A stretch of 64,000 nucleotides of DNA from Chthonomonadia bacterium (GTDB taxonomy: Bacteria > Armatimonadota > HRBIN16): positions 1-64,000 of the forward strand of contig JABUFA010000003.1 of the NCBI GenBank assembly GCA_013314755.1, written 5' to 3'. A program made the position numbers and the translations under genes. The notes under the pieces are model-generated. The model saw only the letters and a list, made by a program, of their open reading frames with translations. It had not been told where the DNA came from and searched no databases. Positions 34,297-38,618 of the stretch are shown one piece after another (the first letter of the stretch is position 1; each line of letters begins with the position of its first letter).

Positions 34297-35166
34297 ATGC
34301 TCAAGCGTCACGCATTTACCTTGATCGAGCTGCTGGTTGTCATCGCGATTATCGCGATACTGGCAGCTATCCTGTTCCCGGTGTTCTCCCAGGCTCGTGA
34401 CAAGGCGCGGCAGACGTCTGACCTGAGCAACCTGAAGCAGATGGGGCTTGCTGTGCAGATGTACGCTCAGGACTATGACGAAACGATGGCTCCTGCCGAG
34501 GGCTGGCGACCAGACCTCGCTGCGGACCCGGGACAGTTCGTCACGTGGATGGCGCTGGTTCTGCCATACACCAAGAACTCTCAGATTTTCCGGTCTCCGA
34601 AGTATGCTTTACTCTATCCCGAGAACATTGCCAACTGGCTGAACTACGGCTTGCACGGCAACATTGTGCAGGGCACTGCTCCCAACCGCATGTTGCCCGT
34701 CTCCTACGCCGCGGTCAACCTGCGCTGGTCCACCTGGCCCCATCAGACGACAGTCAGCTCCAATAGCGGCTACGGTGGCAAAGGTGGTATGTATGCCTCC
34801 TATCCGCAGTGGACCTCGGGCGACACGCCGGTCAGCCTGGCGGCAATCGAGGAGGTCGCTGCGACCCGTATTATCGTGAACGGCATCAACTACCATCTGA
34901 TCAGCGGGTGCGACCTAGACGTGCTGGACGACAGCGGCAACCTGCCCTGTGGGTACACCGCGGTGACCTATATGAACACGGGTGGTCAGCCGCCCTGGGC
35001 AATCAACATGAACCCGCCAAACCGAAGCACGCTGGCGCCTTTTGCGGGCAATATGAACGTGGTCTTCGCCGATGGGCACGCCAAGGCAGTGCCGTGGGGA
35101 ACCGGCTGTCCGCATGAGTACACCGTGGAGGCGGACCGCTCGGTAGTGCCCTCGCGCTGTCGGTAA
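34297..35166 (+). CDS. prepilin-type N-terminal cleavage/methylation protein (DUF1559/H-X9-DG type)
   Basis: 289 aa. It has a class III signal ([20 protein letters not shown]) with Ala instead of the usual Gly before the cleaved Phe, then [20 protein letters not shown] and [11 protein letters not shown], the pattern typical of Armatimonadota and Planctomycetes pseudopilins. The C-terminus has the H-X9-DG region ([16 protein letters not shown]). Many paralogues occur per genome in these phyla, and their role at the surface is mostly unknown. AAAGGGGGT precedes the ATG. Assembly could use the pilB-type ATPase at 2.4 kb. Confidence 0.93.
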
Positions 35167-35177
35167 GGAGGAGCGAG

Positions 35178-35354
35178 ATGGCACGCCGTGAAATCCCTGT
35201 GCCGGTGGCAATCGGCATCATCGTGGCGATTATCCTCGTGGCAGTAGCCATCATGTGGAAGCAGACCTCTCAGCCCAAGGAGCAGGTGCTCAAGCAGTGG
35301 GCGCCGTACCCGCAGATTCCCGTGCAGGGACCTGGAGCACAAGCCTCGCGTTAG
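35178..35354 (+). CDS. small single-span membrane protein (not in the ORF track)
   Basis: 58 aa, ATG at 35178 preceded by AAGGAGGAG, only 11 nt after the prepilin stop. Its N-terminus (MARREIPVPV) is followed by one strong transmembrane helix (AIGIIVAIILVAVAIMW) and a Pro/Gln tail. A terminator follows, so it is the last gene of the prepilin transcript and may help that protein in the membrane. No family is recognised. Confidence 0.75.
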   Translation: MARREIPVPVAIGIIVAIILVAVAIMWKQTSQPKEQVLKQWAPYPQIPVQGPGAQASR

Positions 35355-35404: not shown

Positions 35405-35494
35405 TGCGTTGGCTGTGGAGGGAAAGACTATTCGCCGATAATGTACTGATAACCTGTTCCGCTTTGCGCAAAACGGGATAAGGGGGGAAGCGCC

Positions 35495-35698
35495 ATGAAC
35501 CCCGACGAGATGACCGTTCGCCCTGTGGTGTACGGCACGTCCGTTCGTCCGGTGCACCGCGAGTCGCCGCCGCGCGACTCCACGTCGCGCCAGCCTTCGC
35601 ACAGGCAGGAGAATACCCAGCCTGAAGAGCCGAACGAACCGCCGGAAGAGGTGCCGCAGGATGGCGGGCAGACACACCTGATAGACCTGCGCGTGTAG
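35495..35698 (+). CDS. small Pro/Glu-rich protein of unknown function
   Basis: 67 aa. AGGGGGGAAG lies before the ATG, and the next gene starts 10 nt after its stop. The sequence is charged and disordered-looking (RPVHRESPPRDSTSRQ; QPEEPNEPPEEVPQDGG) with a hydrophobic last stretch (HLIDLRV). No family is recognised. It is supported mainly by the ribosome site and its tight position at the head of the operon. Confidence 0.55.
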   Translation: MNPDEMTVRPVVYGTSVRPVHRESPPRDSTSRQPSHRQENTQPEEPNEPPEEVPQDGGQTHLIDLRV

Positions 35699-35708
35699 AG
35701 GAGGAAGG

Positions 35709-36251
35709 ATGGGTTACATCGGATACCTGAGCGCCGGAGAGGTAGAGCCTTCTTTGTTCATCGGTGCGGCGATGTGCACAGACGGGTTCGGCTTGCCTGT
35801 GGAGTTCCGCTACACCGAGCCGGTGCGCGCTACGCCGCTACAGCGCATCCTGTACGGAGGCGCTCTTCACCGCTACCTGTGCCGGGAGGTAATAGCCTCC
35901 ACCCTGTTACAGGCGATGGAGACGGTTCCCGACGTGTGGATTGTGCGGGACGAGATGCTGTTGGAGCCGCTGGAGGGGATGCGTGCACCGGTGGTGATGC
36001 TGTTCCCAACCGACATGGCACCGATGAGCGACCTGGGGGCGACCATGCCCGCGGGGGACGGCGAGATGCTGGTTCAGCTCTCACTGGCAGGCGCGCCCCT
36101 GCGTGTGCGTTTTGGCAGTCAGGACACCGCTCAACACCGCCAGGCGATTCAGGCGTTGACCGAAGTGGCGCACACAATGGATGTGCTGGAGCCATTAACC
36201 CGCCTTCAGCAGGCAATCCGGGCGGTGCAGGAGGGACTGGAAGCGGCTTGA
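35709..36251 (+). CDS. conserved-looking hypothetical protein
   Basis: 180 aa, GAGGAAGG before the ATG. It reads like a compact alpha/beta protein: IGYLSAGEVEPSLFIGAAM, then GLPVEFRYTEPVRATPLQRI, LYGGALHRYLCREVIAST, VWIVRDEMLLEPL, and a C-terminal helical end. No catalytic motif or transmembrane helix is apparent. Its stop overlaps the TTG start of the next gene (TTGA). Confidence 0.78.
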   Translation: MGYIGYLSAGEVEPSLFIGAAMCTDGFGLPVEFRYTEPVRATPLQRILYGGALHRYLCREVIASTLLQAMETVPDVWIVRDEMLLEPLEGMRAPVVMLFPTDMAPMSDLGATMPAGDGEMLVQLSLAGAPLRVRFGSQDTAQHRQAIQALTEVAHTMDVLEPLTRLQQAIRAVQEGLEAA

Positions 36252-37057
36252 ACGCATCCTGGTGGGGACGTCTCTGGCTTCGAGCGTTGACGTGGGCGTT
36301 CTATTCTGAGCCACCTCAGGTGCACGGTGGGAATCTGGCAATCCTGCCCCCACGGGCGGTTGCGTTCCCGCTGAGGCAGGAAGTACCGATTGTTCGTCGC
36401 CCGCGTCCTGTATGCTGTCGGGTGCGGGGCGTGTCGGCAGAGGCGAACCGCTGTGCGATGCGGGTTATCGCTCGTCCCAAAACACGGGTTCGCACGGTAT
36501 GTGCTCCCTCTACGGCTGTTCGGCAACACAGGATTTCTCTGGCGATTGGCGCACGCCCCCACAAACTCGTACCTATACGTGCAACCTTAGCCGCTTCCCA
36601 TCGCGTATTAATAAGCAGCACTCAGCCTGCTGTGCACGCCCGGGTACGCCTGCTGCCCAATCGGGTTGGGACGTGCGCCGTGCAGTTACGCTGGCGTTGC
36701 CTGGCACAGCCCTTAGCGGTCGAGCGGTTTCGTTGTGGAAATGTCTCTTCCTCGCTGGTATGGCGGTTGCCCCTGTCCCGGCGTGCGGTGTCTTTCAGGC
36801 AGCTGAATGCGGAGTGGCGCCGTCGTTGCGTGGAGGCGCTGGAGAGGGCAGCGAAAGGATATGCGCGTGTTCAAAGCGTATACTACCCTGTGCCGGCGCA
36901 CACTGTGATGAGGCTTGAGATAGACGAGACGCTCGGCGTGCTGTATGTGTATCCCCGCAGGGGGCGCAACGATATGCCTCCCGGTTGTCTGTGGGTTGTG
37001 TGTGGGACGCGAGTGATGGACGGTCAACCGGTGCGCGCGGTGCTGAGGGTGAGTTAA
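36248..37057 (+). CDS. Arg-rich hypothetical protein, TTG start coupled to the previous gene
   Basis: 269 aa from a TTG that overlaps the upstream stop (TTGA), with CAGGAGGG upstream at a rather long spacing. The track's frame runs upstream but is meaningless there. The start is Trp-rich and amphipathic (SWWGRLWLRALTWAFYSEPP). The middle (about 50-165) is oddly rich in Arg, Cys and Val, and the last 90 aa look like a folded domain (NAEWRRRCVEALERAAKGYA; MRLEIDETLGVLYVYPRRGR). The middle part might be fast-evolving or contain an undetected frameshift. The function is unknown. Confidence 0.6.
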   Translation: MNASWWGRLWLRALTWAFYSEPPQVHGGNLAILPPRAVAFPLRQEVPIVRRPRPVCCRVRGVSAEANRCAMRVIARPKTRVRTVCAPSTAVRQHRISLAIGARPHKLVPIRATLAASHRVLISSTQPAVHARVRLLPNRVGTCAVQLRWRCLAQPLAVERFRCGNVSSSLVWRLPLSRRAVSFRQLNAEWRRRCVEALERAAKGYARVQSVYYPVPAHTVMRLEIDETLGVLYVYPRRGRNDMPPGCLWVVCGTRVMDGQPVRAVLRVS

Positions 37058-37533
37058 TGGACGTGCTTTTTTTGGTAGCGCAAGCGGCTCTGCTGATTCT
37101 AGCGGGCGTGATGGTTCTGCGCGTGCGTGAGGAGCTGCAGTTACTGGTGCGTCAGGCGACCTCCTCACAGCAGAGCGAGCAAATAAAGCACTTGCAGGAG
37201 GAGCTTCAGCAGACCCTGCGCGAGGTGCGTGTGACCCTGAGCGAGGGCATTGCAAAGCTGGAGGAGCGCATCGCCCGGGCGGAACAGGTTCTGCACGCGC
37301 TGGAGGTACACGCCCCAAACGCACCGCAGGAGGTTGCGGCTGAGCCGGGGGTTCGGGTGCCGGTGGAGCGTATTCTGGCGCTGGCGGACTCGGGCTGCGA
37401 TGTGAAGGAGATTGCGCGGTTGACCGGCATTGCAGAGGGTGAGGTGCAGCTGGTTTTGCAGATTCGGGCACAGCGCTCGGAGAAGGAGTCTTCAGGCAAC
37501 TCTGTCCAGAGGAACGAGAGGACGGAAGAATGA
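37057..37533 (+). CDS. membrane-anchored coiled-coil protein with C-terminal HTH (DUF6115/DUF2802-like)
   Basis: 158 aa from the ATG in TAATG overlapping the previous stop. One N-terminal membrane helix (VLFLVAQAALLILAGVMVL), a coiled coil (about 25-85, LQEELQQTLREVRVTLSE), a linker, and a small helix-turn-helix (ILALADSGCDVKEIARLTGI, then EGEVQLVLQIRA). This order matches DUF6115/DUF2802-like proteins, which in other bacteria sit in flagellar or pilus-related operons. The role is inferred at best. Confidence 0.72.
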   Translation: MDVLFLVAQAALLILAGVMVLRVREELQLLVRQATSSQQSEQIKHLQEELQQTLREVRVTLSEGIAKLEERIARAEQVLHALEVHAPNAPQEVAAEPGVRVPVERILALADSGCDVKEIARLTGIAEGEVQLVLQIRAQRSEKESSGNSVQRNERTEE

Positions 37534-37550
37534 GAGGAGAAAGAAACACG

Positions 37551-38618
37551 ATGCACAGATGGCTACCGCTGATGATTGCTACGTCGGTAGCGATGTTACT
37601 GGTAACCGCTGGTTGTGGCAGGAAGACGGTTGGCAAGGTCAACGACAAGCCGATTAGCCAGGCGGAATACTACAAACTGTTAGAGCGGATGGCGGTACCG
37701 CTCACCCAGGGGGAGAACCCGATACGAGACCCTGCCACCGGTCGCCTTGTTCGCGAGCAGGCGGGGTATCTCGCACTGCGGATGCTGGTAGACCGCCAGA
37801 TTATTCTGGAGATGGCGGAGAAAGAGAAAGTCATGCCCACCGAAGAGGAAATTAAAAAGGAGCTGGAGCGTCAGAAGAAGCTGCCCGACTTTAACGAGCG
37901 ATTGAAGACGCTCGGCTATACGCAGGACGACCTGAAAGAGGACATCAAGGTGGAGCTGGCGGCGTTTAAACTGCTGACCAAAGGCATTACCGTCAGCGAT
38001 GACGAGGTAAAGAAGGCGTACCAGCAGAATATCCAGCAGTTCACCATTCCTGCGCAGGTGCAGGTGGCGCTGATTCTGGTCAACAACCGCAAGACGCTGA
38101 ACGAAGTGCAGGATATGCTGAAAAAGGGCAACGACTTTCACGTGGTCGCGATGCAGAAGTCCCTCAAACTACCCAACATGCCGCAGGGGTTAGGTGGGGT
38201 GTGGCTGCGTGAGAACGACCAGACGTTCAAACAGTTTCCGCAGTGGTGGCAGCTACTTCAGAAGACACCCGTCGGCGGCGTGACGCAACCGGTTGTTGCC
38301 AAACTGCCCACACCGCAGGGTGGGGAAGAGAACGGCTGGATTATCTTCAAGGTACTGGACAAGAAGCCTCGCCAGGTGCGACCACTGGATGAGGTCAAGG
38401 AGGACCTGCGGCGATTGCTGATGCAGGCGAAGAGCAAGCGCAACCTGGGTCGTGAACTAATGCAGATGCGCGCTCAGGCGAAGGTGTCCTTCGAGATACC
38501 GCGCTTCAATCGCCGCTGGCAGCAGGACATCAAGCAACTGCAGGAACAGCTCAGCCAGGCTCAGGTGCCGGCGTCGTCTGCCGTGCCAGCCCCTGCCGCG
38601 ACGGGCACTTCGCCGTAG
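37551..38618 (+). CDS. SurA/PpiC-like peptidyl-prolyl isomerase lipoprotein
   Basis: 355 aa from MHRWLPLM (AGGAGA 9 nt upstream); an alternative start at 37530 overlaps the previous stop (ATGA) and is also possible. The lipobox LVTAGC puts it in the envelope. A SurA N-terminal-like region follows (LRMLVDRQIILEMAEKEKVM, then TEEEIKKELERQKKLP), then a parvulin-like domain (about 165-300: VQVALILVNNRKTLNEVQDM; NGWIIFKVLDKKP). It likely acts as a chaperone or foldase for exported proteins. The long C-terminal Gln/Ala/Pro tail looks disordered. It closes the operon. Confidence 0.85.
   Translation: MHRWLPLMIATSVAMLLVTAGCGRKTVGKVNDKPISQAEYYKLLERMAVPLTQGENPIRDPATGRLVREQAGYLALRMLVDRQIILEMAEKEKVMPTEEEIKKELERQKKLPDFNERLKTLGYTQDDLKEDIKVELAAFKLLTKGITVSDDEVKKAYQQNIQQFTIPAQVQVALILVNNRKTLNEVQDMLKKGNDFHVVAMQKSLKLPNMPQGLGGVWLRENDQTFKQFPQWWQLLQKTPVGGVTQPVVAKLPTPQGGEENGWIIFKVLDKKPRQVRPLDEVKEDLRRLLMQAKSKRNLGRELMQMRAQAKVSFEIPRFNRRWQQDIKQLQEQLSQAQVPASSAVPAPAATGTSP

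Follow-up and report, generated by a model that had tools for sequence, protein, structure and literature searches.

FipA, a protein of the DUF2802 family, is a partner of FlhF in polarly flagellated gammaproteobacteria, where it binds FlhF via its C-terminal domain and helps to place the flagellum (PMC11620751), and a review groups it with HubP/FimV as FlhF landmarks (PMC12826062). The flagellar system of Bacillus subtilis includes SwrB, which is small and membrane-anchored and is described as confined to Bacillus (PMC4526659). Foldases of the PrsA/SurA/PpiC type carry SurA_N and rotamase domains and a lipoprotein signal, and endonuclease V (EndoV) and PIWI domains have an RNase H-like fold. 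In the literature collection searched there was no paper on DUF6115, and none that helped with the fliA loci of Armatimonadetes. The block of five genes described here has products that recall each of these systems, and very probably serves the flagellum as an accessory operon; it would once have formed the 3' end of an ancestral flhA-flhF-flhG-...-fliA operon and now lies apart from fliA, as judged by gene order and sequence comparison.

The window, a stretch of 64,000 nucleotides at the start of contig JABUFA010000003.1 from a Chthonomonadia bacterium (HRBIN16, Armatimonadota; assembly GCA_013314755.1), contains five frames and three overlaps at 35495-38618, all at the positions given in an earlier note on this DNA (Table 1). 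In a genus-level search of nine genomes the block was present in the same order in eight, in one of which (G006) a contig edge cuts it within the P269 gene, and was missing from the ninth, which is 77 % complete. The five-gene coupled operon of the earlier note is thus confirmed, and its genes are not scattered in relatives, since both order and junctions are retained across the genus. The overlaps of the four coupled genes are not chance, but such overlaps do not entail the fixed stoichiometry that had been read from them. Upstream, a prepilin-like gene with a type IV N-terminus and the gene of a 58-aa single-TM protein (34297-35354) are conserved at this place throughout the genus, and on the downstream side galT and a hotdog-type gene are convergently oriented.

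Table 1 Features of the five-gene block and its upstream region (window coordinates)
Feature	Position	Strand	Description
Sigma-28 (FliA)-like -10 element, GCCGATAAT	35434..35442	+	In front of the operon
67-aa gene	35495..35698	+	Pro/Glu-rich protein, C-terminal end HLIDLRV
180-aa gene (P180)	35709..36251	+	RNase H-like fold by prediction, closest to endonuclease V/PIWI; probably inactive
269-aa gene (P269)	36248..37057	+	Arg/Cys-rich; predicted N-terminal helix, disordered middle, folded C-terminal domain
158-aa gene (P158)	37057..37533	+	N-terminal TM, coiled coil, HTH-like end; DUF6115, FipA-like
362-aa gene	37530..38618	+	SurA/PrsA-like peptidyl-prolyl isomerase with lipoprotein signal
TTGA overlap	36248-36251	+	Joins P180 and P269 genes
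TAATG overlap	37055-37059	+	Joins P269 and P158 genes
ATGA overlap	37530-37533	+	Joins P158 and foldase genes

Identity to the window protein in same-genus relatives is 77-85 % for P180, 41-62 % for P269 (full length in seven of them), 61-76 % for P158 and 66-81 % for the foldase, and the 67-aa protein is 42-61 % identical across the genus. The median dN/dS, with dS near saturation, is 0.09 for P180, 0.30 for P269, 0.24 for P158 and 0.13 for the foldase; purifying selection acts on all four coupled genes and is weakest on P269. These values, together with the codon-position differences, establish all four coupled frames as real genes, including that of the Arg-rich P269, whose conservation the earlier note had made a condition of its reading. 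The TTG start noted for P269 is not conserved, the codon being TTA or CTG in some relatives, with ATG two codons further on.

The membrane coiled-coil protein with an HTH-like end that had been recognized from the letters alone, P158, matches DUF6115 (PF19610) with 29.9 bits, above the 27-bit cut-off, which is also exceeded by its equivalents in six other genus members. It is alike to FipA in size, single N-terminal TM, coiled coil and C-terminal HTH-like domain, and the genes of FipA and of DUF6115 proteins both occur near flhF/flhG/fliA. G113 and E129 of P158 are invariant in 12 of 12 homologs, with the same 16-residue spacing as the invariant G110/E126 of Vibrio parahaemolyticus FipA (PMC11620751), and the third FipA residue, L129, has its Leu counterpart in the window protein, although this Leu is not invariant among the relatives. 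P158 passes the DUF6115 cut-off but fails that of DUF2802 (PF10975; 18.4 bits, cut-off 33.5), against which a fliA-adjacent homolog in another armatimonad (G019) reaches 26.7 bits, and FlhF binding is a property of FipA. The likeness to SwrB is one of description, both proteins being small and membrane-anchored, and P158 differs in its occurrence outside Bacillus. The shared build and the key Gly/Glu spacing suggest that P158 is the anchor of an FlhF- or export-linked complex and, by analogy with FipA, it may recruit or activate FlhF or the export apparatus.

The 362-aa protein bears out the earlier description of a SurA-like foldase lipoprotein, with Pfam matches to Rotamase_2 (1.7e-15, 58.4 bits, cut-off 27) and SurA_N_3 (9e-10, 39 bits, cut-off 27.2) and a lipobox, VTAGC, read off the sequence. 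It shares these domains and the lipoprotein signal with PrsA/SurA/PpiC foldases but its gene forms one unit with a flagellar-locus gene for a DUF6115 protein, and its matches to NCBIfam peptidylprolyl isomerase models all fall below cut-off. It would help to fold flagellar parts outside the membrane.

Elsewhere in the Armatimonadota the same tail comes directly after the flagellar sigma factor gene fliA, in the order flhG-fliA-small protein-DUF6115 protein-foldase (-mazG). At the 30 best DUF6115-like loci in the phylum, the recognized upstream neighbour is fliA 12 times and P180-P269 11 times, and at 29 of them a foldase gene lies downstream; some of these sequences were used to build the profiles, which inflates the E-values but leaves gene order unaffected. 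Two genomes (G015 and G029) have flhG-TM protein-fliA-small protein-DUF6115-foldase-mazG, a third (G051) has flhF-flhG-fliA-small protein-DUF6115, and G019 has fliA-DUF6115-foldase about 4-5 kb from flhA. By family, the DUF6115 gene follows fliA in f7, f5 and f11, with a similar small protein before it in f7 and f5, the same foldase after it in f7 and f11, and mazG next in f7, as in f22. P180 itself follows fliA in G252, in the order fliM...flhB-flhA-flhF-flhG-...-fliA-small protein-P180, a full flagellar export operon that also has fliR (gene names other than the FlhA and sigma-factor matches were assigned by reading the sequences). The protein between fliA and P180 in G252 has 105 aa and ends in HLIDIRV, close to the end of the window 67-aa protein, and the small proteins in the corresponding place behind fliA for the most part begin with an I/V-R-x-V-like stretch and end in HLIDIRV, HLDIAV, HIDIIT or HILDVKV. 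From these short end motifs and its position, the 67-aa protein appears to be the equivalent of the small protein between fliA and DUF6115.

A flhA match was obtained in 70 of 75 genomes with a DUF6115-like gene and in 134 of 216 others (Fisher p 3e-8, ignoring relatedness), and in about 14 genomes the two genes lie within about 7 kb of each other on the same contig. The genome of the window has flhA-flhF on one contig and a flhG-like gene and fliA on another, plus flagellins, and by this gene content the host is flagellated. The earlier statement that no named pathway fits is overturned by this genome content and by the linkage of DUF6115-foldase and P180 to fliA in other Armatimonadota, and five unannotated genes thereby gain a pathway. 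The range of FipA/DUF6115-type flagellar proteins also widens to take in the Armatimonadota, in which they come coupled with a foldase. In the genus of the window the operon adjoins no flagellar gene, and in family f22 it lies beside unrelated genes. Most simply, the operon would have lost its tail from the neighbourhood of fliA by relocation; in this genus the tail would have been cut loose and would now stand alone behind the sigma-28-like -10 element.

That element, CCGATAAT, lies about 50-65 nt upstream of the first gene; it is identical in eight of nine genus members, and the remaining one has CCAATAAT. Across 10 genus genomes the sigma-28-type pattern TAAA-N13-16-CCGATAAT has 43 occurrences, compared with 3 for reversed-pattern controls, and is found before a flagellin gene and before the flhG-like gene. 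A -35 TAAA is not evident at the window site, so the element is supportive only; on the promoter sequence, FliA control of the operon is likely. A housekeeping promoter sharing the same -10 was considered and rejected, as TTGA-N16-19-CCGATAAT is rare (10, against 4 in controls).

The AlphaFold2 model of P180 (pLDDT 94.0, pTM 0.90) has a confidently predicted RNase H-like fold, and its best Foldseek matches are EndoV and PIWI, with E from 3.6e-6, TMq of about 0.4-0.6 (at most about 0.6) and 10-15 % identity. P269 is modelled with a helix at 3-19, pLDDT below 50 at 23-172 and a C-terminal domain from about 175 with pLDDT mostly 75-95; this domain is conserved as far as the Vampirovibrionales, and so common to two phyla, but a fold search gave nothing below E 0.8 and it has no known fold. 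No Pfam or NCBIfam family was found for the 67-, 180- and 269-aa proteins, P180 has no real PDB sequence match (that of its profile to 6nyr is a repeat artefact in which no single stretch is significant), and neither P180 nor P269 matches a known defence protein in PADLOC. Unlike endonuclease V/PIWI, P180 lacks an invariant acidic triad: the invariant residues of the alignment are Y6, P30, E32, F33, R34, Q45, L48, Y49, G50, L150, P162 and R165, of which E32 is the only acidic one, and endonuclease models match none of 26 family members. P180 is probably catalytically dead, its invariant residues being unlike the acidic catalytic triad.

By profile search P180 occurs in 33 of the 291 Armatimonadota genomes, and also in Vampirovibrionia and Hydrogenothermaceae, followed by a gene of one of two kinds. 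A P269-like partner occurs in genus g1, family f22 (including Capsulimonadaceae), G251, Vampirovibrionales and Gastranaerophilales; an SNF2 helicase occurs in G031, G042, G090, G107 and others, and in Hydrogenothermaceae. The Vampirovibrionales loci (L037-L048) form a conserved five-gene set, FliA-type sigma-P180-P269-PAS histidine kinase-response regulator, in a group that includes predatory bacteria. Every genome with a P269-type pair, or with P180 cut at a contig end, has a flhA match; since 70 % of the phylum has flhA and the pair carriers fall in four families, this association alone is not significant. P180-P269 is missing from most flagellated armatimonads and is hence no general requirement, and because P180 relatives also pair with SNF2 helicases, P180 itself is not flagellum-specific.

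It is conceivable, though unlikely, that P180-P269 forms a module for handling nucleic acids, like that of the SNF2-paired relatives, and is only a passenger in a flagellar operon. The predicted EndoV/PIWI-like fold, the occurrence of P180 relatives immediately upstream of SNF2 helicases in Hydrogenothermaceae and in several armatimonad families, and the P269 pI near 11.6 agree with such a role, but in two different phyla both genes come after a FliA-type sigma gene, P180 has no invariant acidic triad, and P269 has no detectable homology to the SNF2 N-terminal region. In the helicase gene pairs, including Shango/BREX-like clusters (L098-L100), a P180 relative is directly 5' of the helicase gene, whereas the window operon has no helicase and P269 is a different partner; a derivation of P269 from the N-terminus of an SNF2 helicase, suggested by a composition that is alike by eye, was rejected when HMM and profile comparison found nothing.

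An action of P180-P269 on sigma-28, as anti-sigma factor or co-regulator, would explain the place behind fliA, which is directly adjacent and in Vampirovibrionales overlapping or nearly so, with the histidine kinase and response regulator coming next, but is less probable still, as the pair is absent from most fliA-bearing armatimonads and has no resemblance to FlgM or other anti-sigma factors in Pfam or NCBIfam. The envelope assembly module suggested by the earlier note, in which foldase and membrane protein assemble envelope proteins unrelated to flagella, accords with the action of SurA/PrsA-type lipoprotein foldases on exported proteins and with the conserved prepilin-like gene just upstream, but is very improbable, because the DUF6115-foldase pair lies behind fliA in several families, P180 follows fliA, DUF6115-like genes co-occur with flhA, the genome is flagellated, and the prepilin gene is about 330 bp from the operon in a pairing not seen in most other families read.

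Under the preferred reading of a flagellar accessory operon, the block most likely represents new protein families within a known kind of system. P180 would be an RNase H-fold adaptor without catalytic activity and would bind P269, which is strongly basic and for the most part disordered, and the two would act as a cytoplasmic adaptor pair at or near the P158 anchor. P269 is basic (pI near 11.6) and P180 acidic (pI near 4.6) throughout the genus, but opposite charges are not universal across families, P269 of L042 being slightly acidic. More tentatively, and less likely than not, P180 could found a family of inactive RNase H-fold (EndoV/PIWI-like) adaptors that bind disordered regions of a partner encoded next to them, which in flagellar operons is a basic scaffold and elsewhere an SNF2 helicase; if true, flagellar control would be linked to a fold of the nucleic-acid type. 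The family, until now unannotated, is newly exposed, with its genes following fliA in two phyla and neighbouring SNF2 helicases in others, and is open to testing in two quite different settings.

P180 relatives lie directly upstream of SNF2 helicase genes in L050-L052 (Hydrogenothermaceae), L024, L025 and L088-L097, where several SNF2 N-terminal regions end in a G-K-x-F/Y-like motif, and SNF2 helicases beside P180 relatives match generic SNF2 defence models in PADLOC. Around 3.9-9.4 kb of L098 (L098-L100), a distant P180 relative occurs amid two BrxC/BrxD-like ATPases, one of which also matches SngB, and an SNF2 helicase, a cluster that resembles a Shango/BREX-type defence locus. Sigma-28-like promoters were also noted at G000:C5:197350 and C35:29937 (L138, L140), before genes that, read by eye, encode a probable globin-coupled sensor and another sigma factor.
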